Source of the DNA: a virus | Strand: one strand, 5' to 3' | Virus record (IMG/VR): IMGVR_UViG_3300022072_000169 | Location: 1-21,097 of that record | DNA: 21,097 bases | In this document: piece by piece, positions 2,716 to 19,520 of the stretch | Layout of the letters: each line of letters opens with the position of its first letter | Position numbering within the stretch: the stretch's first letter is position 1 | Made by a program: the position numbers and the translations under genes | The notes under the pieces: model-generated | What the model saw: only the letters and a program-made list of their open reading frames with translations | Databases searched by the model: none | Told to the model about the DNA's origin: nothing

Positions 2716-3603
2716 ATGGCTGGCGACTGGATCAAGTTTGAGATCGGAACGTCCGACAAGGCTGAGGTTTGGGCAATAGCTCAGGATTTATCAATTGATC
2801 CTGATGCGGTTGTTGGAAAGCTTCTGCGTGTTTGGGCATGGTTCGATCAACATACCGAAGACGGTAACGCTCCGAGCGTTACCAAAATGCTGCTAGATAG
2901 AAATGTTGGCGTTACCGGTTTTTGTAATTCGCTAATCTCTGTTGGCTGGATGGCAGAAAGTGAAGCTGAGGTATTTCTCCCACACTTTGATCGCCATAAC
3001 GGAAAAACAGCCAAAACCCGCGCCACCACTGCAAAGCGTGTTGCAAGCTTTAAAAATAAAACGCAAGAAAAACAAAAAGGTAACGACAACACTAACGATA
3101 AGGTAACGCCGACACCGTTACCTAAAGAAGAGAAGAGAAGAGAAGATATATCTAATACTAACGTATTAGATTCTTCTTGCTCTGAGCTGTCCAGCTCAAA
3201 GCCAAAAGCTCCACTCGATGACAGCCAAATTTTTATTTCAATCCCGACAAACAAATTCAACACCGAAAGCGAAGAACGCCCGATTACCGAAAACAAAATT
3301 TCTGAGTGGCAAGCGGTTTATCCCGCTGTAGACGTTCGTCAATCGCTCATGCGAATACGAAGCTGGGTTATTAATAACCCAAGCAAGCGCAAGACGTTCG
3401 GCGGAATAAATAAATTTATCGACACCTGGTTGGCAAAGGATCAAAACAGCGGAGGCAGCAATGCAGCAAACCAACAGCATCGTAGCGTTAGTCCAAGCCA
3501 ATACAAGCCTGGGCCTGCCGATCTCGTCAGGGCGCAAGCAAGGCAAGCCTTGGAGTCTCTCGACCGAGAAGCTGGTAATCCTCGCGTTCACCCGACTAGC
3601 TGA
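2716..3603 (+). CDS. Phage replication initiator, O-like
   Basis: A 295-residue protein from the ATG at 2716 (TAAGGG about 8 nt upstream); an in-frame opening extends to 2587 but crosses the terminator, so the longer version is rejected. The N-terminal 100 residues (MAGDWIKFEIGTSDKAEVWA, LRVWAWFDQHTEDGNAPSVT, GWMAE...VFLPHFDRHNGK) form the winged-helix domain of phage replication proteins. A Lys/Asn/Thr-rich linker follows. The C-terminal part, ISEWQAVYPAVDVRQSLMRI, then SWVINNPSKRKTFGGINKFI and DTWL, is the conserved tail of phage initiators. Direct repeats and inverted repeats inside the gene (2863-3170) look like its own origin, as in lambda O. The 3' end overlaps the helicase-loader gene by 143 nt. 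Confidence 0.75.
   Translation: MAGDWIKFEIGTSDKAEVWAIAQDLSIDPDAVVGKLLRVWAWFDQHTEDGNAPSVTKMLLDRNVGVTGFCNSLISVGWMAESEAEVFLPHFDRHNGKTAKTRATTAKRVASFKNKTQEKQKGNDNTNDKVTPTPLPKEEKRREDISNTNVLDSSCSELSSSKPKAPLDDSQIFISIPTNKFNTESEERPITENKISEWQAVYPAVDVRQSLMRIRSWVINNPSKRKTFGGINKFIDTWLAKDQNSGGSNAANQQHRSVSPSQYKPGPADLVRAQARQALESLDREAGNPRVHPTS
2863..3170. other. Candidate phage replication origin with iterons inside the initiator gene
   Basis: The heptamer GGTAACG or its complement occurs at 2863-2869, 2877-2883, 2910-2916, 3079-3085, 3102-3108 and 3116-3122. The first two form a perfect palindrome with 9-bp arms (GGTAACGCT CCG AGCGTTACC, 2863-2883). After the last repeat come four tandem copies of GAAGA (3127-3146), then TATA and a perfect 8-bp hairpin, TCTAATAC TAAC GTATTAGA (3151-3170). 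Iterons next to a purine-rich, AT-rich, easily opened tract inside the O-like gene match the known layout of lambda ori. Function is inferred. Confidence 0.5.
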
Positions 3604-4075
3604 CTTGTTTGGTCACAAGGCTGTTTCGCGTGGACTGGTTATCTACTCCGATGCTGAGCGCGGCATTTACTCCGAATCGTTTGAGCTTTGGTGCCGGAAG
3701 TTGAATGACCTGACCGCTGAAAACTTTAAGGCCGGAATCGCTGGGCTTGAGCAAAAGTCTGAAGACGAATACCGCATTGGCGGAGAGATGTGGCCGCCAA
3801 GCTACGCAGAATTTCGGGCGCTTTGTTTTCCGAACAATAACCGCGATACGCAGGCGCACAAGATTTTCCCGAGAATGCTCGCAATCGAAGATCAAACGCA
3901 AAAAGAGCAGCAGCGGGCGCTTAATATCATTAAATCAAGTGAGCTATTGGCAATGGTTGGCGGCAATCCACAACCAGCTCCTGAGCTAACCGAAAAATCG
4001 AGAGAGTTTGCAAGGCGGCGCTTAGAGCAAGCTAAAAAAATGTTGTCGGAAAAGGGGCCTCAAAAATGCCAGTAA
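3461..4075 (+). CDS. Replication protein P-like helicase loader
   Basis: A 204-residue protein; the ATG at 3461 has GGAGG 5 nt upstream. The core FTRLADLFGHKAVSRGLVIY, then FELWCRKLNDLTAENFKAGI and MWPPSYAEFRALC, matches the phage replication protein P family, which brings the host replicative helicase (DnaB) to the origin. The C-terminus is charged and helical (EFARRRLEQAKKMLSEKG). It follows the O-like initiator, but its first 47 codons lie out of frame inside the end of that gene, far more than the few bases usual at O-P junctions. It overlaps the next gene by 10 nt. The domain call is from pattern recognition. Confidence 0.65.
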   Translation: MQQTNSIVALVQANTSLGLPISSGRKQGKPWSLSTEKLVILAFTRLADLFGHKAVSRGLVIYSDAERGIYSESFELWCRKLNDLTAENFKAGIAGLEQKSEDEYRIGGEMWPPSYAEFRALCFPNNNRDTQAHKIFPRMLAIEDQTQKEQQRALNIIKSSELLAMVGGNPQPAPELTEKSREFARRRLEQAKKMLSEKGPQKCQ

Positions 4076-4347
4076 GAAATACAAGCAAGGCTGCATTCCT
4101 TGAAATTCAAGAAGACAACATTGCGGCTGCGCAGCGAATTCGCATTTTAAATTATGTGCGCAAGCACCCTGGCGTTTCCCGCCGTGAAATTCGCACAGGC
4201 TTAAACCTGTCGATTGAAATGGGTTCTGTCTGCGGTCGCGCTAATGAGCTGCTGAACTCTGGCGCGCTGGTTGAGGGCGGATGCAAGCACTGCCAGCAAA
4301 CCGGTAGATCTGTGAATTTGCTGTTTGTTGCGGGTGATGAGGCATGA
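4066..4347 (+). CDS. Winged-helix protein of the replication/early operon
   Basis: A 93-residue protein overlapping the end of the P-like gene. Residues 20-75, AAAQRIRILNYVRKHPGVSR, REIRTGLNLSIEMGSVCGRA and NELLNSGALVEGG, have the order of a winged helix (helix, HPGVSRREI turn, recognition helix, wing). A short Cys/His stretch CKHCQQTGR follows and could bind a metal weakly. Small proteins of this type are common between replication and nin genes of Pseudomonas-type phages, with no assigned role. It probably binds DNA. Stop and next start share ATGA, so translation is coupled. Confidence 0.55.
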   Translation: MPVRNTSKAAFLEIQEDNIAAAQRIRILNYVRKHPGVSRREIRTGLNLSIEMGSVCGRANELLNSGALVEGGCKHCQQTGRSVNLLFVAGDEA

Positions 4348-4589
4348 GCCCCGAATTCATAAACCATCTAATGACCTGCGAAAAATGCTATGCCCCAGTG
4401 CGCAAGTATTGCCCCGAAGGCCTTGAGTGCAAATTAAATAGTGACGCTGATTTTGTGATGACGCTAAACACTAAAGAGCAGCGCAATACAGCATTGCTCT
4501 CAATGAAAAAGAACAGCCCGGCGCATTACGAAGCGCTGCGGGAAAAAATGAAGGCGCGCTATGCGGCAAAGCGAGTGGAGGCAGCATGA
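4344..4589 (+). CDS. Small zinc-binding-like phage protein
   Basis: An 81-residue protein with its start in an ATGA overlap. Four cysteines (12, 15, 23, 29) in MTCEKCYAPVRKYCPEGLEC form a C-x2-C-x7-C-x5-C pattern likely to hold zinc. The motif CYAP-x2-KYC-x2-G recurs in small proteins of phages and mobile elements. The C-terminal half is a charged helix (YEALREKMKARYAAKR). No function is known to me. Its coupling to both neighbours suggests it belongs to the early DNA-metabolism operon. Confidence 0.55.
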   Translation: MSPEFINHLMTCEKCYAPVRKYCPEGLECKLNSDADFVMTLNTKEQRNTALLSMKKNSPAHYEALREKMKARYAAKRVEAA

Positions 4590-4918
4590 TAAACATAGAG
4601 GCAGTGAGACTGCGGAAAGAGGCGATAAATAAGCGCAAGGCTGAATTAAGGCGAGTTCAGCGGATGCAGGCTAAGGCTGCAAAAATTCTCGAAGCTAGGA
4701 CGGCGGTGATTGGCAAGGTATCGCGCTCACCGCATAAGATTTTGCCTGCTGAGTCGAGGTCGGCATTTTCGCGTGAGGATGCGATTGTTTTTGGTCGCGC
4801 AGTATTGCCGTTTAACCAGGTGCTGGGGTGCTGGTACAACGCGGCAGGCGTGAAGTTTTTTCAGCGTGAGCGCGCAGAGCGTCATGCAATGAAAATGCAC
4901 AGGGCAATCGTTCAGTGA
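4586..4918 (+). CDS. Basic hypothetical protein of the early operon
   Basis: A 110-residue protein starting in an ATGA overlap. The first 45 residues are a strongly basic helix (LRKEAINKRKAELRRVQRMQ...). The second half includes FNQVLGCWYNAAGVKFFQRE and a His-rich tail. I recognise no family. The high Lys/Arg content suggests nucleic-acid binding, but this is inference. The next gene begins with GTG inside its stop (GTGA). Confidence 0.5.
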   Translation: MINIEAVRLRKEAINKRKAELRRVQRMQAKAAKILEARTAVIGKVSRSPHKILPAESRSAFSREDAIVFGRAVLPFNQVLGCWYNAAGVKFFQRERAERHAMKMHRAIVQ

Positions 4919-5415
4919 GCATTTCCGACACTGTAACGCTGATAGCTAACAGTGAAGCGGCATTCGAGGCCTCTGTGATTGAGGCTCGCGCGATGTGGAA
5001 AGAAAAGCGCTATTTGCGCATGCGCCTATCTACCTGCAAAAACAGGACGCTTGATCAAAACGCGCTGTGGCCAACACTGTATAAACGGATAAGCGAAACA
5101 AGCGGCGATGGTAGCGCGGCGAATATTGGTGAGGTTCGCGCTTACTGCAAGCTGATTATTGGTGTGCCTATTTTGCGTCGTGATGACGAACAGTTTGAGA
5201 AGGGCTGGAATAGATACTTCGCAAGCAGAAGCTACGAAGAGCAGATTTATTTGATGAGCCCTAATCCTCTATTTGGTGTTGATGGCTTCCCTGTTACGCG
5301 CTTACTGAGCACAAAGCAAGGCGCGGAGTACACAAACGAGATAGATCGGCATTACGCGCCCCATGGTGTTTATTTTGGAGATTTGCTAAGTGAACGCAAA
5401 AGCAAGAATAAGTAA
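4915..5415 (+). CDS. NinB/Orf-like recombination protein
   Basis: A 166-residue protein from a GTG in a GTGA overlap. The segment LRMRLSTCKNRTLDQNALWP followed by TLYKRISE is the hallmark of the NinB family (RTLDQN-x-x-W), single-strand DNA-binding recombination mediators that replace RecFOR functions in lambda-like phages. Downstream, IGEVRAYCKLIIGVPILRRD and LMSPNPLFGVDGFPVTRLLS are typical of the longer NinB-like variants of other proteobacterial phages. The position between replication genes and a RusA-type resolvase fits a nin-like recombination block. The family assignment rests on the one motif. Confidence 0.55.
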   Translation: MSISDTVTLIANSEAAFEASVIEARAMWKEKRYLRMRLSTCKNRTLDQNALWPTLYKRISETSGDGSAANIGEVRAYCKLIIGVPILRRDDEQFEKGWNRYFASRSYEEQIYLMSPNPLFGVDGFPVTRLLSTKQGAEYTNEIDRHYAPHGVYFGDLLSERKSKNK

Positions 5416-5860
5416 GTGTGCTGTAGATCGTCTGCCACCAAAGATTAAGCGGCATCTGATTGGCGCCGTGCTTGAGTGGTGGGACGTAGAGCCGATGAGT
5501 ACCAATGGTGGCGATAAGTTGCTGTTTAAGTTCGACTCCAATACAAGCCCGGTTACAGATCTTCTTTTGCGTCGCCATGGTGTTTACGACGCATCGCATA
5601 TCGTTAATGCAATTTTGAATTGGGAGGTGCACATGGAAGTAATCTATGACACGCCCAACAATTCGAAAAAGTCGGCTCACATAGATCACCACTGGTTTAA
5701 GTTTCGCGGAACCATATTTCCAGTAGATGCGCGCTTTAAATCAGAGCGCGAAAACTTCTACATGATGAAGAATTTAGAGCATGAATTGGTGCCTGCGGAT
5801 AATAAAAACAAAGGCTACTACCGCGTGATGAGATTTACAGCAACGGTTATAGGGGTTTGA
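5390..5860 (+). CDS. Hypothetical protein of the early operon
   Basis: A 156-residue protein. The GTG at 5390 has GGAG about 8 nt upstream and overlaps the previous gene by 26 nt. The start reads MNAKARISKCAVDRLPPKIK, then RHLIGAVLEWWDVEP. A later region is rich in His, Asp and aromatic residues (SAHIDHHWFKFRGTIFPVDA) and could include a metal site. No signal peptide or membrane segment is visible. I do not recognise the family. Its place in a row of overlapping genes argues that it is real. Confidence 0.5.
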   Translation: MNAKARISKCAVDRLPPKIKRHLIGAVLEWWDVEPMSTNGGDKLLFKFDSNTSPVTDLLLRRHGVYDASHIVNAILNWEVHMEVIYDTPNNSKKSAHIDHHWFKFRGTIFPVDARFKSERENFYMMKNLEHELVPADNKNKGYYRVMRFTATVIGV

Positions 5861-6123: not shown

Positions 6124-6336
6124 ATGGAATTAAGCAACTTTAAACTGGAGAAAACTGAAGGTGAGGACGCTACGAATTGGAGGTACTTCTCATCTGTTGA
6201 TGTTACAACAGGCTTTTGGTTTTGGAAGAAAACCGCTAGGCGGGGAATTTGCAGAAACTTTATCGGCTCCTATTTTTTCACTGACACCGGAGAGTACGTG
6301 CCGAGCGATGATGTTGAAAAGTTGGCCAGAGTCTAG
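6124..6336 (+). CDS. Cassette-type hypothetical protein
   Basis: A 70-residue protein; AGCAGG lies upstream of the ATG. The core ATNWRYFSSVDVTTGFWFWK, then KTARRGICRNFIGSYFFTDT and GEYVPSD, resembles in my memory small proteins of chromosomal integron cassettes from environmental Gammaproteobacteria, where a W-R-Y/F...VTTG...W-W/F-KK...IC+ pattern recurs. It has no signal peptide or membrane segment, and its function is unknown. The stop lies 21 nt before the R'' core of an attC-like site, as expected for a cassette gene. Confidence 0.55.
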   Translation: MELSNFKLEKTEGEDATNWRYFSSVDVTTGFWFWKKTARRGICRNFIGSYFFTDTGEYVPSDDVEKLARV

Positions 6337-6357
6337 GTGGCGACGACAGGGAAGGAG

Positions 6358-6443
6358 GCATAACGCCGAGTTAAACGGCGGCGGTACAAAGTAAATTTAA
6401 AACTGGGATGGTCAGGCCGTCCTTTTTGAACGACTTGTTATGC
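6358..6443 (+). other. attC-like site 1
   Basis: R'' GCATAAC (6358-6364) and R' GTTATGC (6437-6443) are perfectly complementary. Inside them, the left arm GAGTTAAACGGCGG pairs with the complement of the right arm, TCGTTCAAAAAGGACGG, leaving unpaired extra bases in one strand (C after GTT, A before CGG), like the extrahelical bases that orient attC. Length is 86 bp, within the usual 55-140 bp range. The ends CATAACGCCGAG and GACTTGTTATGC recur in the site at 9808-9891. Confidence 0.75.
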
Positions 6444-6521
6444 AAATTTAGCCGGTAAAGTGGCGCGCCTGCTAGGTTAATTCTTAAAGCGCCGCACAAC
6501 ACAATTAAGAGATAAAACCTT

Positions 6522-6674
6522 ATGAGTATTGACATGAAAGAAGCGATTGAAGCGTTGAGAGATAAAGCAAAAAATGCCGAAAAATCAGAGGATGCACTCC
6601 GATTTTCTCAGGCGGCAAATAACCTTGCGAACACCAGAGCAGCAATGGTGAATAGTGACAAGCAAGAGAAGTAG
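6522..6674 (+). CDS. 50-residue cassette-borne hypothetical protein
   Basis: The ATG at 6522 starts a 50-residue protein, MSIDMKEAIEALRDKAKNAE, then KSEDALRFSQAANNLANTRA. It is fully helical and amphipathic. The segment DALRFSQAANNLANT resembles short phage and cassette proteins with an A-x-K/R-F/Y-S-Q-A-A-x-N-x-A pattern, often annotated hypothetical. No clear ribosome binding site is seen beyond an A-rich leader (AAGAGATAAAACCTT). The gene lies alone between two attC-like sites, with 79 nt of leader from R', so it forms a single-gene cassette of about 343 bp. Confidence 0.5.
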   Translation: MSIDMKEAIEALRDKAKNAEKSEDALRFSQAANNLANTRAAMVNSDKQEK

Positions 6675-6700
6675 TGATTTCTGCGCCGCCTACACGGGGC

Positions 6701-6786
6701 GCATAACGCCTAGCGCAAATGCGCACAGAACCAACTAGCTATAAACTGATATTTACCATGCGTCATTTTGGCGCGACTTGTTAAGT
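6701..6786 (+). other. attC-like site 2
   Basis: R'' GCATAAC (6701-6707) is followed by the left arm AGCGCAAATGCGCA. The right arm, read as complement, is CGCGCCAAAATGACGCA and pairs with it except for single extra C and A bases. R' is GTTAAGT (6780-6786), an exact fit to the consensus GTTRRRY. Length 86 bp, the same as site 1. R'' and R' differ in their outer bases, as happens after cassette exchange, because recombination occurs between G and TT of R'. Confidence 0.7.
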
Positions 6787-6799
6787 GAGGGCTTACGCA

Positions 6800-7009
6800 A
6801 TGCAGCTAAACGAAGACACACGATTTATTTTAGGCAGACCGAACTTTTGGTGCCACTCAATAGCAAAAAGAATGCGCGAGCTAGGCCACGAAATACCGAA
6901 TAAGGCTGAAGAAGAGCAAGCCAACGTAATTAACTTGATGCTTGAGCACTACGAAAAACACGGAACCAACTGGCGGGCTGAATTTGAAGCCTATTTAAGA
7001 AGCACTTAA
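6800..7009 (+). CDS. Cassette-type hypothetical protein
   Basis: A 69-residue protein; ATG 6800 with GAGGG about 9 nt upstream (a GTG at 6785 is in frame but lies inside the attC core). The sequence NEDTRFILGRPNFWCHSIAK, then RMRELGHEIPNKAEEEQANV and INLMLEHYEKHGTNW, strongly recalls a family common in integron cassettes of environmental bacteria (RFILGRPNF...G+.IP.+.E.EQA.V...ML..Y..HG..W). The fold seems alpha-helical and the function is unknown. The stop codon TAA (7007-7009) is part of the R'' core ACTTAAC of the next site, a typical cassette arrangement. Confidence 0.6.
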   Translation: MQLNEDTRFILGRPNFWCHSIAKRMRELGHEIPNKAEEEQANVINLMLEHYEKHGTNWRAEFEAYLRST

Positions 7010-7138
7010 CAGTTTATTCAACGGGACGGGCCGTAAAACTCCGAAATGATTTTTAGTAAAATCAATGCGTTGTATAAGTTTTCGGAGTTTTACTGGTCGG
7101 GCCGTATATTTACAGTTTTATTTTTTAAAGCGTTAGCC
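7004..7138 (+). other. attC-like site 3 (long, less certain)
   Basis: R'' ACTTAAC (7004-7010) fits RYYYAAC and contains the stop of the preceding gene. R' is GTTAGCC (7132-7138). The interior has a perfect 14-bp inverted repeat, GTAAAACTCCGAAA (7034-7047) with its complement (7080-7093), flanked by GGGCCGT on both sides. At 135 bp it is long, like the longest attC sites. The arms near the cores pair poorly, so a simple hairpin between genes is the alternative. Confidence 0.45.
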
Positions 7139-7178
7139 GGAAGCGCTTAGTTTTTCCGGCAGCAAGTGAGGTAGTTCA

Positions 7179-7583: not shown

Positions 7584-7617
7584 AAAATCCGGCCTTGCGG
7601 GGCCGGATTTTAATAAA
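7584..7617 (+). terminator. Rho-independent terminator
   Basis: A perfect 11-bp stem, AAAATCCGGCC (7584-7594) and GGCCGGATTTT (7601-7611), has a 6-nt loop. The T-run is short on the + strand but the stem is very stable. The complement also has an A/T tail, so it may act in both directions. Confidence 0.75.
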
Positions 7618-7636
7618 AAATATTGAGGGTAGAAAA

Positions 7637-8155
7637 TTGAAAAGTTTTATTGGTACAAAAGCTGTAAATGCAAAACCTATGAATCGCCTTGAATACAATA
7701 ATTTTCGTGGGTGGAAATTGCCGGATGATGAAAACGGCGAGGATGAAGGCTACCTGGTGGAGTATGTGGATGGTGGTGCGGCCAACACAAAAGAGTTTTC
7801 TGGTTATGTTAGTTGGTCGCCTAAGGAGCAGTTTGAGAATGCTTATCGGGCTAGCGGCAGCATGAGCTTTGGCCATGCGCTCACGCTTGCTGAGGCGGGC
7901 GCAAAGATAGCACGACGCGGCTGGAATGGCGCAGGTCAATTTGTGGTTGTAATGGGGGCGCTTTATCTTCCTCCGTTCAACACGCAAGGCACCGACCGTA
8001 AAGTCAATGACAGAACTGCAAAATGGATTGGCGAAGATACTCCGCTGGATTCTCAGCCCTACTTTGCGCTCAAGAATGCGCAAAATAAGTGGCAGCCAGG
8101 CTGGGTCCCCAGTCAAGGTGACTTGTTTGCGAAAGACTGGATGATCGCAGAGTAA
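7637..8155 (+). CDS. gp49/gp66-family and DUF2829 (Tad2-like) fusion, putative anti-Thoeris protein
   Basis: A 172-residue protein. TTG at 7637 is chosen: GAGGG lies 8 nt upstream, and MKSFIGTKAVNAKPMNRLEY is the normal head of this family. Residues 1-75 (IGTKAVNAKPMNR, YNNFRGW, DEGYLVEY, SGYVSWSPKEQFE) match the N4 gp49/Sf6 gp66 family of small phage proteins. Residues about 75-172 (MSFGHALTLAEAGAKIARRG, WNGAGQFVV, PYFALKNAQNKWQPGWVPSQ, GDLFAKDWMI) match DUF2829. Proteins of that family (Tad2) are known to bind and sequester the cyclic ADP-ribose signal of Thoeris defence. The site residues were not checked. Start and stop overlap the next gene as TAATG. Confidence 0.7.
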   Translation: MKSFIGTKAVNAKPMNRLEYNNFRGWKLPDDENGEDEGYLVEYVDGGAANTKEFSGYVSWSPKEQFENAYRASGSMSFGHALTLAEAGAKIARRGWNGAGQFVVVMGALYLPPFNTQGTDRKVNDRTAKWIGEDTPLDSQPYFALKNAQNKWQPGWVPSQGDLFAKDWMIAE

Positions 8156-8511
8156 TGCAGCGCAAGCCAACGCCACAAAGCCGATCAGCCAATGCCGCCG
8201 AAAAGCGGCATATGGGCTGGATTAAGGAGCGGTGCATTTGTGCCGCTTGCAGTAATTCTGCGCCGGTAATCAATCACCACTTTCTCGGCAGTGCGCGAAA
8301 GCTGCCTGCAGGGCTGGAGCGTGTTTTTTGTGGGCACTGGGGTGTGGTTGGCCTGTGTCAGCGCTGCGATGACTTGGTGACGCACGGAAGTCCTAAAAGG
8401 CTCGCCGAGGCGCACGGCCCAGTTTCTGATATGTGGTTTCGGCAAATTGAGGAATTCCCTGAAGAGGTTCCTCTGAATGTAATGGCAGCTATTGCTCGGT
8501 GGGGTAAGTGA
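8155..8511 (+). CDS. Putative zinc/HNH-like nuclease-type phage protein
   Basis: A 118-residue protein beginning in a TAATG overlap. C-x-C-x2-C in RCICAACSNSAPVINHHFLG gives a first cysteine cluster followed by a His-His pair. VVGLCQRCDDLVTHGSPKRL gives C-x2-C-D-x3-TH. The order CxxC...HH...CxxC...H is that of treble-clef HNH or Ref/NinG-like phage nucleases, and it lies directly before RusA in the recombination block. No clear N of an HNH motif is visible, so it may be a zinc-binding structural or DNA-binding protein instead. Stop overlaps the RusA start by 4 nt. Confidence 0.45.
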   Translation: MQRKPTPQSRSANAAEKRHMGWIKERCICAACSNSAPVINHHFLGSARKLPAGLERVFCGHWGVVGLCQRCDDLVTHGSPKRLAEAHGPVSDMWFRQIEEFPEEVPLNVMAAIARWGK

Positions 8512-8876
8512 TGAATTTATTTATTCCGTATATTGCGCCAAGCACCAATGCGATGTACGCAGGGCAGCATTGGAGAAAGCGGGTAAAGCATAAGGCCGAG
8601 GCAATGAGAGCTGTAATTGCTGCGCTATCACCTCCCGGTTATGCGGGCGAATTTTTTTCTGGTCCCGTATGTGTTGAGCTTGAACCACACCTAGGAAAGG
8701 GGCGCAGGGCGTATGACGTTAGTAATTACAGCTACACATATAAGCTGATTGAGGACTGTCTTGTAGAGCGCGGGATTTTAGTGAGCGATTCCGCAACTTT
8801 TGTAAAAGAAATTCGATTTAAATCACCTGTTCGTGCCAGCAACACCGGCCTTATGATTCACTTAATTAGGGGGTAA
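8508..8876 (+). CDS. RusA-like Holliday junction resolvase
   Basis: A 122-residue protein, close to the 120 residues of E. coli RusA, with an ATGA overlap start. The N-terminus MMNLFIPYIAPSTNAMYAGQ, then HWRKRVKHKAEAMRAV, is typical (substrate-binding basic segment). The active-site segment RAYDVSNYSYTYKLIEDCLV, then ERGILVSDSATFVKEIRF, corresponds to the catalytic region of the family. The first Asp and the second-site Asp before L are present, but the usual D-x-D-N reads D-x-S-N, and the usual DD reads SD. It would resolve junctions and branched DNA during late replication and packaging. Activity is uncertain because of these changes. Confidence 0.7.
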   Translation: MMNLFIPYIAPSTNAMYAGQHWRKRVKHKAEAMRAVIAALSPPGYAGEFFSGPVCVELEPHLGKGRRAYDVSNYSYTYKLIEDCLVERGILVSDSATFVKEIRFKSPVRASNTGLMIHLIRG

Positions 8877-8878
8877 TA

Positions 8879-9529
8879 ATGAGATTCGAGACTTCTTCAG
8901 GGGCTGCAATAAGCGCCCGCCAAGCTTGGCATGACGCATTTCACACTGATGTTAATAGTATGGACGCCCGCGACATGGCAAGCGGCATACAGTTCACGGC
9001 GAAGGGTGGCGACAATAAAACAATGAGTCATTGCGACAAGGGCAAGATTCAGCAAGCAGTCCACCTGTTGCGACTAAAGAATTTCGCGGCATGGTCTTGG
9101 GGTATGTGGGCCTACGCCCCCGAAGGAACTGAGAATTCGAATGTAGTAAAAAACGCGCTGCTTGATTATGCGTTTAGCGCAGCAAGAACGGACAAGCTTA
9201 ATCCGTATTTGGTTGCGCGCTGCGGGCATATTGCCTATGTGGCTATGCAGGACGCCGCGGTTGAAGCAAGAACGCAATCGCGCTACAAGCGGCACCATAA
9301 AGAAATGGCGGCAATGCTCCGCTGTAGTGTTGACGATTATCGAAAGGATTGGATGCCGGTGTTTTTCAAGATGAAAGATGCACTGAAGGATTTGGACGGC
9401 GTGGCGTTGCCGCCCATAGGCAATGTGATTTGGGTGATTATTGATAAAAATAGCGGTGATGAATCTGAGCGAGCGAATGCGGTTGTTGATTTACAGCGGA
9501 TGATGCGCAGAATTGAGTGCGCTGACTGA
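8879..9529 (+). CDS. Candidate late antitermination protein, Q-like
   Basis: A 216-residue protein; AGGGGG lies about 7 nt before the ATG. Segments such as LLRLKNFAAWSWGMWAYAPE and YKRHHKEMAAMLRCSVDDYR, then KDWMPVFFKMKDALKDLDGV, suggest a helical DNA-binding protein (the MAAMLRCSVDDYRKDW part resembles a helix-turn-helix). It is the last gene of the rightward recombination block and, apart from the cassettes, directly precedes a terminator and the lysis genes. That is the place of Q in lambda-like phages, and size (Q is about 207) fits. The family call is mainly positional. Confidence 0.45.
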   Translation: MRFETSSGAAISARQAWHDAFHTDVNSMDARDMASGIQFTAKGGDNKTMSHCDKGKIQQAVHLLRLKNFAAWSWGMWAYAPEGTENSNVVKNALLDYAFSAARTDKLNPYLVARCGHIAYVAMQDAAVEARTQSRYKRHHKEMAAMLRCSVDDYRKDWMPVFFKMKDALKDLDGVALPPIGNVIWVIIDKNSGDESERANAVVDLQRMMRRIECAD

Positions 9530-9807: not shown

Positions 9808-9891
9808 TCATAACGCCGAGATTTGCGGCGGCTGGGAGTAAAAGAACTGGGTGGAGATTTACATTCCGTCCGCAACATTGACTTGTTATGC
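9808..9891 (+). other. attC-like site 5
   Basis: R'' TCATAAC (9808-9814) and R' GTTATGC (9885-9891) pair in six of seven bases. The left arm TTTGCGGCGG pairs with the complement of the right arm, GTTGCGGACGG, with a single extra A, an extrahelical base as in attC. Length is 84 bp. The ends CATAACGCCGAG and GACTTGTTATGCAAA are also found at site 1. Confidence 0.75.
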
Positions 9892-9917
9892 AAAAAACTA
9901 CGATGCGGAGACTGGCC

Positions 9918-10127
9918 ATGAAGTTTAAAGACGAAATACACACAAGCACTACTATTAAATTTTCGTTTGTTGATAAGTTGCGTGTTTTGATTGGGTGCAA
10001 AGTTACACTCAATGTAAGTGTAAAAACAGAAAATGTTGTTGGAGCCACAGAAACTGAATCGCGGGTAACCGTTGAAAAGGTATTCAAGAAAGAAACCGAA
10101 TTGGGCGCTTACTCTGCCCAAGCATAA
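9918..10127 (+). CDS. Cassette-type hypothetical protein
   Basis: A 69-residue protein; ATG 9918 has GGAG 8 nt upstream. An in-frame ATG at 9888 lies inside the attC core. The sequence MKFKDEIHTSTTIKFSFVDK, then LRVLIGCKVTLNVSVKTENV and VGATETESRVTVEKVFKKET, is a small beta-rich protein of a type I recall from integron cassettes of environmental bacteria. Function unknown. The stop TAA (10125-10127) lies inside the R'' core GCATAAC of the next site. Confidence 0.6.
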   Translation: MKFKDEIHTSTTIKFSFVDKLRVLIGCKVTLNVSVKTENVVGATETESRVTVEKVFKKETELGAYSAQA

Positions 10128-10231
10128 CACTGTAATACACGTATCGCGCAAAGTCGGGGCTTATAAATCAATAGCTTGCGGAGCAGCAGCACGAAAGCTG
10201 CGAGAAGGCCCAATGAATTAATCAGTTAAAT
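10122..10231 (+). other. attC-like site 6 (degenerate)
   Basis: R'' GCATAAC (10122-10128) is clear and contains the preceding stop. A possible R' GTTAAAT (10225-10231) fits GTTRRRY. Between them, arms pair only partly (CTGTAAT against CTGATTAAT) and there is a small hairpin, GCAGC ACGAAA GCTGC. It is read as a decayed attC or one with an unusual stem. The 10128-10370 stretch contains no gene that I can support. Confidence 0.35.
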
Positions 10232-10316
10232 AAGGCGCGGCTTGTAGTTGCATAAATTAAAGCTACATGCGACCATATTGTCACTTTGGGGCTTTGCGCC
10301 TCGAAACTAATTAACC

Positions 10317-10349
10317 AAACCCGCCTTGAGCAATCTCGGCGGGTTTTTT
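10317..10349 (+). terminator. Rho-independent terminator upstream of the lysis genes
   Basis: Perfect 9-bp stem AAACCCGCC (10317-10325) with GGCGGGTTT (10338-10346), closed further by GAG/CTC within the loop, followed by six T. It ends 20 nt before the holin start. A terminator between Q and the lysis genes is the typical target for a Q-type antiterminator (like lambda tR'). Confidence 0.85.
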
Positions 10350-10369
10350 ATTGCCCAAAGGAAACTCAA

Positions 10370-10624
10370 ATGCAAGAGCCGCACACATCAGCCGCTTCGG
10401 GACCAATCACTTACGGCCTTGGCGCTGTTGCGGCTACAGTGTCGCAAATGAGCGCAAACGAATGGCTAATAATTCTATCCATCGTTGCCGTCCTAGTAAG
10501 AATTTATGTTGATATTACAAATTACCTTGAGCAGCGCGCAGAAAAAAAGGCCAAGCGTGAAGCCGAAAAACTTGAGCGAATTCGACAGCTTAATGATGAA
10601 ATGAATTGCAGAGTTAGCGAGTAG
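10370..10624 (+). CDS. Phage holin (HP1/LydA-like)
   Basis: An 84-residue protein; AAAGGAAA lies just before the ATG. A longer frame upstream crosses the terminator and is rejected. The N-terminus MQEPHTSAASGPITYGLGAV is small and semi-hydrophobic, then EWLIILSIVAVLVRIYVDIT is a clear membrane helix, and the C-terminus YLEQRAEKKAKREAEKLERI is a basic tail, as in holins of the HP1/lysis protein S type. It probably forms the inner-membrane lesions that start lysis or depolarise the membrane to activate the SAR endolysin next to it. It is first in a lysis operon. Confidence 0.75.
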   Translation: MQEPHTSAASGPITYGLGAVAATVSQMSANEWLIILSIVAVLVRIYVDITNYLEQRAEKKAKREAEKLERIRQLNDEMNCRVSE

Positions 10625-12523: not shown

Positions 12524-13984
12524 TTGGAATCCACTTTAATTGAGTATGACGCGAGCGAAACGGCAGCTGCGTTTCATACGTCTACTGCGTTTGTTAGGGG
12601 TATTCGTGGCCCTGTAGGTGGCGGTAAAACTGTTGCGTGCTTAATTGAAATACTCTCCAAAGCATCGCAGCAGGCGCCCGACAAAAAGAAGCGGCGTAGG
12701 ACGCGATGGGCCGTTGTTCGTAACACAGCCCCAGAACTAAAGACCACAACAATAAAGAGCTGGCAAGATTGGGTGCCAACTGAAATTTGCCCGATTCGCT
12801 ACGACTCTCCAATCACCGGAAATTTAAAGCTTCCGCTCGATGACGGCACGACGATCTACTGTGAAGTAATTTTCCTTGCGCTTGATATTGAAAAGGATGT
12901 CAAAAAGCTTCTGTCGTTGGAGTTGACTGGCGCATATATAAATGAGGCAAAGGAGATCAGCAAGGCGGTGCTTGACGGTGTTACTCAGCGCGTCGGTCGC
13001 TACCCATCAATGAAGGATGGCGGCGCTACATGGAATGGCGTAATCATGGACACAAACAGTCCAGATGACGATCACTGGTGGTACGAGTTTGAATGCGTTA
13101 ACACCCCCCGTAAGTGGGCGTTCTTCCCGCAGCCAGGGGCACTACTTCTATTGCCCAATGGCAGCTATATCCCAAACCCAAAAGCCGAGAACGTCAAAAA
13201 CCATGTTAAAGGCTACGATTATTGGCTGGATATGCTCGGCGGCAAAGACAAGAACTGGATCAAGGCGTTTGTCTTGAATGAGTTCGCAACGACTCAGGAC
13301 GGTAAGCCGGTTTACGGCGACTACTTCAACGAACAAGTCCATAACTCTGCTAATGAATTCCTGCCCATTAAGGGTTTGCATATTATTGTTTCGTTCGACT
13401 TTGGTCTGACGCCCGCGCTTGTTGTTGGGCAGGTTCAGGCAAGCGGCCAGCTTCGCATTCTGGATGAGGTCACCACTAGCCGAATGGGCTTAGAGGGCTT
13501 CTTAAAGGATTGCGTTAACCCGCTGATGGCGCGCAAGTATCGCGGCTTTGAAATGATTGTTGTCGGTGACCCGAGCGGCGTTAAGGGCTCGGACAATGAC
13601 GAGAAGTCTTGCTTCGATATTCTTAAGGCTCACAAGTACGACGTTATCCCCGCGCCAAGCAATGCGCTTGAGCCGCGACTTGGCGCAGTTACTTGGTGGC
13701 TCTCGCAATTGGTCGGCAAAGGTCAGCCCGGCTTTTCCATTGGCAAGAATTGCACGACGCTGCGCAAGGGCTTTGCTGGCGGCTACAAATTTGAGCGTGT
13801 TCAAGTTGGTGGTGCTGAGGCTCGCTATCGCGACATGCCCTGCAAAAACAAATATTCGCATCCTCATGATGCGCTGCAATACCTCTGCATGATTGCAAGA
13901 CCTGAGCACCTAACAAACGCACTACCCGCAAAACAAACAGATCATTCACCGCGCGTTGTCGCTGACAAAACTACCGGCTACTAA
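12524..13984 (+). CDS. terL: Terminase large subunit
   Basis: The TTG at 12524 is chosen: GGAAGAGG lies 5 nt upstream, and MESTLIEYDASETAAAFHTS is a usual head for this family, giving 486 residues (P22 gp2 has 499). A longer frame opens upstream to 12257, but those 89 residues are aromatic-rich and atypical. Walker A GPVGGGKT (29-36) and the Walker B-like AYINE (137-141) form the packaging ATPase. The nuclease has acidic residues in VSFDFG (D292), VGDPSG (D349) and HPHDAL (D449). It cuts and pumps DNA into the capsid through the portal. The ATPase/nuclease is complete; only the N-terminus is uncertain. Confidence 0.85.
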   Translation: MESTLIEYDASETAAAFHTSTAFVRGIRGPVGGGKTVACLIEILSKASQQAPDKKKRRRTRWAVVRNTAPELKTTTIKSWQDWVPTEICPIRYDSPITGNLKLPLDDGTTIYCEVIFLALDIEKDVKKLLSLELTGAYINEAKEISKAVLDGVTQRVGRYPSMKDGGATWNGVIMDTNSPDDDHWWYEFECVNTPRKWAFFPQPGALLLLPNGSYIPNPKAENVKNHVKGYDYWLDMLGGKDKNWIKAFVLNEFATTQDGKPVYGDYFNEQVHNSANEFLPIKGLHIIVSFDFGLTPALVVGQVQASGQLRILDEVTTSRMGLEGFLKDCVNPLMARKYRGFEMIVVGDPSGVKGSDNDEKSCFDILKAHKYDVIPAPSNALEPRLGAVTWWLSQLVGKGQPGFSIGKNCTTLRKGFAGGYKFERVQVGGAEARYRDMPCKNKYSHPHDALQYLCMIARPEHLTNALPAKQTDHSPRVVADKTTGY

Positions 13985-17308: not shown

Positions 17309-18310
17309 ATGGCTACTGGCGATACTAAATACGGTGATATTTCACCACGCGTTGGCGTTGCGCTCGACACTGTTGCGCTAAAACATGCTGGCCCCGTCCT
17401 GTGCGTTGCTAAATTCGGACAGCAACGCCCAATTCCTAAAAACAAGGGCCAAACCCTTAAGATGCGCCGCGCGAAGCCTTGGCCCCTGGCTTTAACGCCG
17501 CTGGCTGAGGGCGTTAAGCCGTCGCCCTTGAAGCTTGAGTATGAAGATGTGAATTTTACGCTTCAGCAGTTCGGCTCATACGCGCGCTTCACTGACGTAG
17601 TTGAAGACACGCACGAAGACCCAGTTCTTCAGGATCTGACCATGCTGTCTGGTGAGCAAGCGGCGGAAACGGTTGAGAAAATTGTTATCGGTGCAATCAC
17701 TGGTGGTACAAACGTAATGTTTGCCAACGGCGCCATTCGTACTGCTGTTAATACAAAGCTAACTATCAATGTGCAGCGCAGGTGTACTCGCGCACTGAAG
17801 TTAGCTAAGGGCAAGAAAGTTACAAAAATGCTGTCAGCATCTGTGCGCATTGGTACCAAGCCAATTGAGCGCTCTTACATTTCATTTGCGCACACTGACG
17901 TGGAAGCTGATGTTCGTGCACTCCCAAACTTCAAGACCACGGCTGAGTACGGCACCATGCAAACTCTGTGCGATGAAGAGATCGGTTCGTGTGAAGATGT
18001 TCGCTACATTCTTACGCAAAACATGACGGCTTGGGCGAATGCTGGCGGCGCGCATGGTGGTGTTGTTATGTCCACCGGCGGCACTCTCGCTGACGTTTAC
18101 CCTATTGTTTACATTGCGGACGATGCCTTCGGTGTTACGTCACTTAAGGGTCAGGAGGCCATCAATATGATGGTGCTTAAACCCGGCGCTCCGCGTTCTG
18201 GTGATGAGCTTGGTCAGTGGGGCTCTGTTGGCTGGAAGACTTGGCATGCGTCGGGGATTCTTAACAACACATGGCTTGTTCGTGCGGAGGTTGGCGCAAG
18301 CGTTCTTTAA
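17309..18310 (+). CDS. Major capsid protein, N4-gp56 family
   Basis: A 333-residue protein; GAGGT lies before the ATG. MATGDTKYGDISPRVGVALD is followed by QRPIPKNKGQTLKMRRAKPW and the conserved LKLEYEDVNFTLQQFGSYAR, then FTDVVEDTHEDPVLQDLTML. These, with the YISFAHTDVEADVRALPNFK and ADVYPIVYIADDAFGVTSLK segments, are the hallmarks of the N4-gp56 family of HK97-fold capsid proteins. It forms the icosahedral shell and should be the most highly expressed gene. The gene is followed by a strong terminator, giving a high-level mRNA end. Confidence 0.85.
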   Translation: MATGDTKYGDISPRVGVALDTVALKHAGPVLCVAKFGQQRPIPKNKGQTLKMRRAKPWPLALTPLAEGVKPSPLKLEYEDVNFTLQQFGSYARFTDVVEDTHEDPVLQDLTMLSGEQAAETVEKIVIGAITGGTNVMFANGAIRTAVNTKLTINVQRRCTRALKLAKGKKVTKMLSASVRIGTKPIERSYISFAHTDVEADVRALPNFKTTAEYGTMQTLCDEEIGSCEDVRYILTQNMTAWANAGGAHGGVVMSTGGTLADVYPIVYIADDAFGVTSLKGQEAINMMVLKPGAPRSGDELGQWGSVGWKTWHASGILNNTWLVRAEVGASVL

Positions 18311-18338
18311 TCTTTGGCACTGGGAAGGTGCAGGTATT

Positions 18339-18364
18339 GGGTGACTTCGGTCGCCCTTTTTTTT
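18339..18364 (+). terminator. Strong rho-independent terminator after the capsid gene
   Basis: The 7-bp stem GGGTGAC / GTCGCCC (one G-T pair) has the very stable TTCG loop and eight T. It lies 29 nt after the capsid stop and before the next structural gene. Partial termination would reduce tail gene expression below that of the capsid. Confidence 0.85.
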
Positions 18365-18387
18365 AATCTAAATTTTCGGTAAATACT

Positions 18388-18870
18388 ATGTCCACGATCA
18401 CGACAAATAGCCATCCAAAAACACTCAAGAGCCATCTTGAAGCTGAGCTTGGCGTTAAAGTCCCTGACGGCGCAACAACTGCAGTACAGCTTATTGAGCT
18501 AATACGCTCAAACGGTGGGACAGTAATTGAGGCCGACAAAGACACTGCTGGCGGCGGCGCCAAGGGCGATGATTCTGCGCAAAACAAGAAAAAGGCTGAT
18601 ATTGATGCGCTCTGCAAAACCAAGGTGCGCATGGTTTTAAACGACCGCAAAGATGCGGAAAAGCAACATACGCTTGGCGTGAATGGCGTTTTCACCACAA
18701 TCACTCGCGGTGAAGAGGTTACGGTTCCTTACCCTGTTTATCACGCACTTCTGATTGCAAAGACTACCGTCTATGAGCAAAAAGGCAACGAAATGGTCGA
18801 AAAAGAAATTGCGACTGAGCCGTTGTCGGTTATTAAGTTTGACGTTCAGCCTGGCGAGTACGAAGACTAA
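18388..18870 (+). CDS. Virion-associated protein adjacent to the capsid gene
   Basis: A 160-residue protein with no strong ribosome binding site. The N-terminal third (LKSHLEAELGVKVPDGATTA, VQLIELIRSNGG) is a small helical domain. After a Gly/Lys-rich linker, the C-terminal part KVRMVLNDRKDAEKQHTLGV, then VFTTITRGEEVTVPYPVYHA and LLIAKTTVYEQKG, is beta-rich and of a type found next to N4-gp56 capsid genes in short-tailed phages. It may be a capsid decoration or head-completion protein. The function is inferred from context. Confidence 0.5.
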   Translation: MSTITTNSHPKTLKSHLEAELGVKVPDGATTAVQLIELIRSNGGTVIEADKDTAGGGAKGDDSAQNKKKADIDALCKTKVRMVLNDRKDAEKQHTLGVNGVFTTITRGEEVTVPYPVYHALLIAKTTVYEQKGNEMVEKEIATEPLSVIKFDVQPGEYED

Positions 18871-19520
18871 TGAATTACCTAGAGCTGGTTCGCATGGCAT
18901 GGGAAGAGGCAGGGCAGTCCGGTGACGGCCCCGCTTCCGTCTCTGGCGTTAGCGGGCATCAAAAGCGCTTTGTAAATTGGGTGCGCCGCGCGTGGAATGA
19001 CATTCAGCAAGAAACTGACGAGTGGGTATTTCGCAAGACCGACAAACTTGTGTCATTGACTGCAGGGCAGGAAACATTTTCTGCGGCAGCGCTGGGTTTT
19101 TCCGATCTTCAAATGCCGCTGTCACTGTTCATAATGATTGACGGTCAATACTCGCAATTGAAATTTGTTATTTCTCCGTCCTACACGCAAAATTATTTAA
19201 TGCAAAATAAGCAGCCGGGGCGCCCAGGTGTTTGTTATTTCATTAATGGCACCTTTGCATTTGATTGTATTCCCGATCAAGCCTACCAGCTCAAAGTTCA
19301 CTACCTGAAGGCGCCGCAAATGCTCGGCTCCAATGGTGATATTCCCGCCTGCGATGCAGTATATCATCACACCATAGTGTGGGGCGCAGTCAAAAGCTAT
19401 GCTCGATACGATGAAGATAACGCGCTCTTTATCGAAGCAAGCGAAGAGCATTCAAAGGCAATGATTTCAATGCACAGCAAGCTAACACCTCGGGTTCAGT
19501 TTGCGCGGAGTTCTTTCTAA
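18870..19520 (+). CDS. Tail/head adaptor protein, P22 gp4-like position
   Basis: A 216-residue protein in a TAATG overlap. GHQKRFVNWVRRAWNDIQQE, then TDEWVFRKTDKLVSLTAGQE and TFSAAALGFSDLQMPLSLFI, form a helix-rich N-terminus and a beta domain seen in adaptor proteins below the portal of podoviruses. The C-terminal segment IVWGAVKSYARYDEDNALFI is also typical of this group. It should bind below the portal and link to the tail nozzle. The gp4 identity is by position and general pattern. Confidence 0.6.
   Translation: MNYLELVRMAWEEAGQSGDGPASVSGVSGHQKRFVNWVRRAWNDIQQETDEWVFRKTDKLVSLTAGQETFSAAALGFSDLQMPLSLFIMIDGQYSQLKFVISPSYTQNYLMQNKQPGRPGVCYFINGTFAFDCIPDQAYQLKVHYLKAPQMLGSNGDIPACDAVYHHTIVWGAVKSYARYDEDNALFIEASEEHSKAMISMHSKLTPRVQFARSSF

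Follow-up and report, generated by a model that had tools for sequence, protein, structure and literature searches.

The window analysed here, a linear IMG/VR record 21,097 bp long, contains phage genes, among them an HTH repressor-like protein, NinB, Phage_lysozyme, the large terminase subunit and a portal protein, along with a weak match to a capsid protein. Its nearest relative by terminase (80%) is the sister phage G001, which is colinear with the window over 10.2-21.1 kb. The Rfam search of the window yielded no match, and relatives of the NinB protein and of the protein encoded at 8508-8876 provided no useful loci. Set within this phage gene context are short cassettes, attC sites and an attI-like site (Table 1).

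Table 1 Features of the cassette region in the window
Feature	Position	Strand	Description
attC site 1	6358..6443	-	R1 39.2 bits, E 2.4e-7; cut GCATAA|C at 6363|6364
Cassette A (343 bp)	6364..6706	+	attC site 1 arms, the 50-aa gene and the first six bases of the next core
Cassette A gene, 50 aa	6522..6674	+	direction opposite to attC polarity
attC site 2	6701..6786	-	R1 38.9 bits, E 2.9e-7; cut 6706|6707
Cassette B (303 bp)	6707..7009	+	R'' GTTAAGT complements core ACTTAAC at 7004-7010
Cassette B gene, 74 aa	6785..7009	+	ATG start likely at 6800; stop TAA inside core
attI-like site GGAGTTTTACGGCCCGTCCCGTTGAATAAACTG|TT heading the main array	7010..7042 (33 bp)	-	PWM 34.7 bits, window left out of the matrix
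Rest of attI region	7043..7140	.	inverted repeat with distal CTGTAAATATACGG palindrome, then T-run in + direction; terminator-like
Tad2-like (anti-Thoeris) gene	7595..8155	+	PF11195 5.7e-22; just downstream of the array, outside any cassette
attC site 3	9808..9891	-	R1 32.9 bits, E 7e-6; cut 9813|9814
Cassette C (314 bp)	9814..10127	+	ORF 9888-10127 (79 aa); stop TAA inside core GCATAAC 10122-10128

The attC sites were detected with a covariance model (A1/R1, hereafter R1) trained on 43 attC sites, all from bacterial loci and many of them beside intI or in intI-bearing genomes. Run over the whole window with filters off, R1 returned exactly three matches at E<=1, all on the minus strand. As a positive control, it was run on the plasmid R100, where the aadA1 attC of In2 came out on the strand that encodes aadA1; the strand called by R1 is therefore the canonical one. 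The first-pass annotation had described two 86-bp sites, which are present at the positions and with the cores it gave, and its reading of them as true attC agrees with the covariance model, which matches both with E of 2-3e-7. Its count of two overlooked the third attC, as well as the attI-like site and the mirror polarity. The arms of the third site are 87-91% identical to attC sites of the viral contigs L034 and L068. Another candidate attC at 7002-7139, suggested by an ACTTAAC...GTTAGCC pair, was discarded as R1 gave no match to it; this stretch is the attI-like region.

Canonical attC sites carry an unpaired C and A in the left (R''-L'') arm. In the sites of the window these bases are located in the right arm on the plus strand, which therefore corresponds to the recombining bottom strand. 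It follows that the cuts lie at GCATAA|C-type positions, namely those of the three attC sites together with 7009|7010 and 10127|10128, and that these positions delimit cassettes A, B and C. The cassette proposed earlier at 6437-6780 was thus misplaced, since attC sites on the minus strand yield cassette A instead; that it holds a single gene was correct for the 50-aa ORF, but the window contains three cassettes rather than one. In each of them attC comes first and the gene follows, in the direction opposite to the canonical one, so that the genes are not co-directional with attC polarity as the definition of an integron would have it. They run the same way as the operon of the phage, and the earlier placement of the cassettes in an early/middle operon is supported. 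The R'' of cassette A (GTTATGC) complements the next core (GCATAAC). Its gene matches no known family, and the protein of cassette B shares a domain with proteins of other phage or prophage contigs (54-58% identity).

Judged by its sequence, a putative attI is also present: the motif at the head of the main array is related to the intI-adjacent attI of a bacterial contig (L082), and its score can be set against a maximum of 17.5 bits for shuffled sequence. In canonical orientation, phages share a conserved sequence ahead of the first cassette, roughly GGAGTTTTGCGGCCTGGCCGTTGAATAAACTG|TT or ...GGCCGTTTATTCCGCTG|TT, and about 20 contigs have this attI-like head. The head site of cassette C beyond 10128 is a degenerate version of it, a point against the integron reading proposed below; G001 has a strong attI-like site at the corresponding place. 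The G001 contig stops 3-4 nt past the attI G|TT at both ends, which would fit an assembly breaking where the population carries different cassettes. When viral contigs were scanned with the attI pattern alone, three new contigs were found (L140, L142 and L144). Two of these (L140 and L144) displayed attC arrays with reversed genes downstream, and L142 displayed degenerate attC as assessed by eye; thus, attI predicts arrays. A distal palindrome like CCGTAAATATACGG is conserved some 100 nt from the attI cut, at 7043-7140 in the window and upstream of attI in L086, L090, L101 and L115. This palindrome resembles a terminator when read with the operon and might also bind a protein, and the conservation of the attI-like site could partly reflect common descent of the operon-end/terminator region. 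Two contigs from one metagenome (L091:2827 and L117:2096) are identical over 151 nt up to the attI G and diverge directly after TTA; the flanks of this block differ on both sides, as if the block itself had moved.

Among bacteria, the attI matrix matches a site beside the intI of an uncultured Pseudomonadales (L082:19403, 20.6 bits; intI at 18070-19059, minus strand), and the same genome holds two further attI-headed canonical arrays (26.4 and 14.0 bits). Among 391 Pseudomonadales genomes, the consensus pattern occurred in this one only, in three copies, each heading a canonical cassette array. Weaker matches adjacent to intI were obtained in Oceanisphaera (14.5 and 18.5) and Marinobacter (14.2), most of which score below the shuffle maximum and draw their weight from their position. 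In the attI-bearing Pseudomonadales genome (G018), the two extra attI copies (C3:67475 and C3:124964, i.e., L148:16992 and L150:19767) are located far from intI and head canonical arrays without an integrase, and Oceanisphaera L036:632 resembles these copies. A prophage origin of the G018 C3 copies was considered and rejected, as they are located in canonical bacterial cassette arrays.

To place the window among its relatives, we collected viral contigs by exact patterns on both strands, a procedure that biases attC arm type and not gene polarity. These scans yielded 8 and 27 contigs in overlapping sets. With the model, attC sites were confirmed in every pattern-found record except two, often as 3-10 sites in a tight cluster; the matches in L116 and L119 had no R1 support and were taken as chance. 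In total, about 29 further viral contigs display the same layout: an attC array with reversed genes and without intI, headed in most of them by an attI-like site. Several were verified as phage by terminase or portal genes. Between one attC site and its neighbour, the longest ORF ran opposite to attC in 88 cases and with it in nine, against 8 and 35 in bacterial controls (Fisher p 4e-17, a value that is only indicative as the arrays share ancestry). The nine co-directional phage ORFs look like spurious antisense ORFs. Among the cassette-bearing phages, 45 of the 88 genes end in the TAA of the next core, as do the genes of cassettes B and C in the window. The first-pass annotation had held that invariant core sites among related phages would speak against integron sites; the cores do vary. 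Among isolated phages, the R1 attC sites of Pseudoalteromonas phage H101 (PH101) are opposite to the annotated genes, TJE1 has a single R1 match of canonical polarity, and P12002L has no R1 match.

With at least two attC sites and no intI nearby, the window corresponds to what is called a CALIN, and it might be an ordinary one, that is, a piece of a host chromosomal integron array carried into a phage. attC sites in phages have been described as CALINs in an earlier study (PMC9892861), and the uncultured Pseudomonadales has attI and attC that are broadly of this type. Nevertheless, we consider this origin highly improbable. The polarity of the phage genes is reversed, the attI-like head is conserved across different phages, and the cargo is of phage type, with short genes (median 73 aa in phages, 133 aa in bacterial arrays). 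Moreover, the attC arm type, found in 27 viral contigs, was absent from 369 Gammaproteobacteria genomes. Nor did BLAST with the phage attC return anything from INPHARED (phages) or PLSDB (plasmids), so this arm type occurs in no isolated, named-host phage of those sets. The earlier proposal that the phage gathers cassettes from the integron of its host thus found no support, given the polarity and arm-type results and the near-identical cassettes that occur from phage to phage.

These shared cassettes provided insights into how the arrays are assembled. In a cassette moved by IntI, R'' must pair with the core at the other end of the same cassette, which in an array is the core of the next site. 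Of 107 adjacent phage pairs, 91 have an R'' that complements the next core (2000 shuffles gave a mean of 15 and a maximum of 26) and 15 have an R'' that matches the core of its own site, with discordant cases favouring the next core 79:3. Bacterial controls behave alike (41/46; discordant 31:1). In addition, contigs mostly derived from different metagenomes share single cassettes, and their similarity starts or stops at the G|TTRRRY cut. The clearest pair (L084 and L111) is 97% identical over 459 nt, exactly one cassette, with identity of 46% before and 92% after G|TTATAC, and of 98% before and 48% after G|TTATGT. Similar edges at cut sites were found for L104/L106, L068/L109, L106/L110 and L086/L110. 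As far as sequence can tell, the pairing with the next core and the identity switches are the footprint of IntI shuffling.

Homologous recombination could also swap such modules, in which case the attC-like hairpins would be intergenic linkers or RNA elements and the exchange would be carried out by ERF/NinB annealing proteins rather than by IntI. NinB is encoded in the window and ERF/YqaJ-like proteins were recognised by eye in L034. One cassette gene is shared by L084 (reverse-complement 13643-13950) and L068 (reverse-complement 6203-6508), at 94% over 231 nt, with different attC arms, so not all exchange is of whole cassettes. Weak folding of the attC sites points the same way: the median R-box pairing probability is 0.09, against 0.80 in bacteria. 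The bottom strand is more stable than the top in 88 of 135 phage sites but folds worse than in bacterial ones, so that single-stranded DNA may matter more for the phage sites. Still, we give homologous recombination very little credence as the main process, as it accounts poorly for identity that switches exactly at G|TT, for the complementarity to the next core, for the extra-helical bases and the match to bacterial attC, and for the similarity to attI. The exchange edge between L084 and L068 lies near R'' and not R', and standard IntI cutting does not explain it.

We therefore regard it as probable that a phage early operon in the window ends in a mirror-image integron that lacks an integrase of its own, is worked in trans by an integron integrase, most likely the IntI of the host, and circulates mainly among phages. 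At the level of sequence, the arrays display attC sites, an attI-like site, reversed polarity, a missing intI, G|TT junctions and sharing between phages; from these, we infer the action of host IntI as recombinase, the entry of cassettes at attI and their expression. The attI-like site would stand at the downstream end of the early operon. Cassettes, each consisting of one attC and one short gene, would be inserted beside it by an integrase supplied in trans and cutting at G|TTRRRY, and their genes would be read from the phage promoter towards attI. As phage transcription would enter at the end opposite attI, genes and attC point in opposite directions, and this reversed layout fits transcription from a phage promoter with attI at an operon end indicated by the terminator-like palindrome. 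The reversal also puts the recombinogenic bottom strand of attC on the coding strand, which would be exposed during co-directional transcription. In co-directional replication, the coding strand would serve as lagging-strand template, an orientation known to promote the exchange of cassettes. In chromosomal integrons, a bottom strand located on the lagging-strand template raises excision, and most sedentary integrons avoid this arrangement (PMC5371416).

The source of the integrase could be different, with the same arrays being worked by a divergent enzyme from the phage itself or from a helper phage. Many of the contigs are incomplete and most PHROG families have no known function, which leaves room for such an enzyme. 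In the window, however, neither TIGR02249 nor PF00589 matched, and at the family cut-off IntI was absent from all 29 records searched, most of them fragments and several of 37-48 kb. The only array record with a tyrosine recombinase domain was G039, where the domain was not IntI-like by the same cut-off; G050, which also has one, has no attC. Hence, we find a phage-borne integrase very unlikely, and host IntI remains the preferred source.

Integrons are familiar as devices of bacteria, and attC sites in phages were previously interpreted as borrowed pieces. The phage arrays share with sedentary chromosomal integrons the attC structure, the G|TTRRRY cut, one-gene cassettes, an R'' complementary to the start of its own cassette and an attI-like head, and differ from them in lacking intI, in their reversed genes, in the location of attI at the end of a transcription unit and in their phage cargo. 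The reverse integron of Treponema also departs from the usual integron layout, but is bacterial and has its own intI. Likewise, attG and other secondary sites receive cassettes outside the intI-adjacent attI, whereas different phages reuse one conserved, attI-related motif of 33 bp. Qi et al. 2023 (PMC9892861) already described complete integrons in phages and, in virulent phages, attC clusters that lack intI, and showed that IntI1 recombines the attC sites of PH101; the available text of that study mentions neither an attI-like head nor reversed polarity nor an exchange of cassettes. In the literature searched (subscription papers, supplements and preprints aside), we found no attI-like site in integrase-less phages, no consistent gene inversion and no trade of cassettes between phages. 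Hence, these three features appear to be new, and the bare observation of attC in phages is not.

Phages thus appear to own a version of the integron that has an attachment site and no integrase and is built backwards to suit phage transcription. Among its genes are some directed against restriction and against CBASS/Thoeris-type defences. More broadly, we somewhat favour the view that phages of a widespread class maintain attI-anchored mirror arrays of counter-defence genes of their own at early operon ends, with host IntI shuffling them and trading them between phages, in a pool separate from the bacterial one. Such a system would explain how phages quickly re-equip themselves with small accessory genes and would supply a mechanism by which part of the mosaicism of phages arises; the cassette pool also becomes searchable through the attI motif.

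Cassette genes matched 71 PHROG families. Pfam matches among the 88 cassette genes included Lar restriction alleviation (two), Acb2/Tad1 (one), an N6_N4 methylase, an Rv2179c-like exonuclease and a Cro/C1-type regulator. The Acb2/Tad1-type gene, assigned by eye to L072:9003-9260, lies in a phage cassette between attC sites at 8891-8974 and 9286-9371. The contig L084 of phage G025 displayed two arrays in opposite directions (3493-5814 and 10004-10601), each with its own attI-like site. The two arrays lie where divergent gene blocks end, as though a cassette platform closed each of the early operons. The array-bearing phage contig G037 encoded a phosphoadenosine phosphosulfate reductase (L126:4357-5619).
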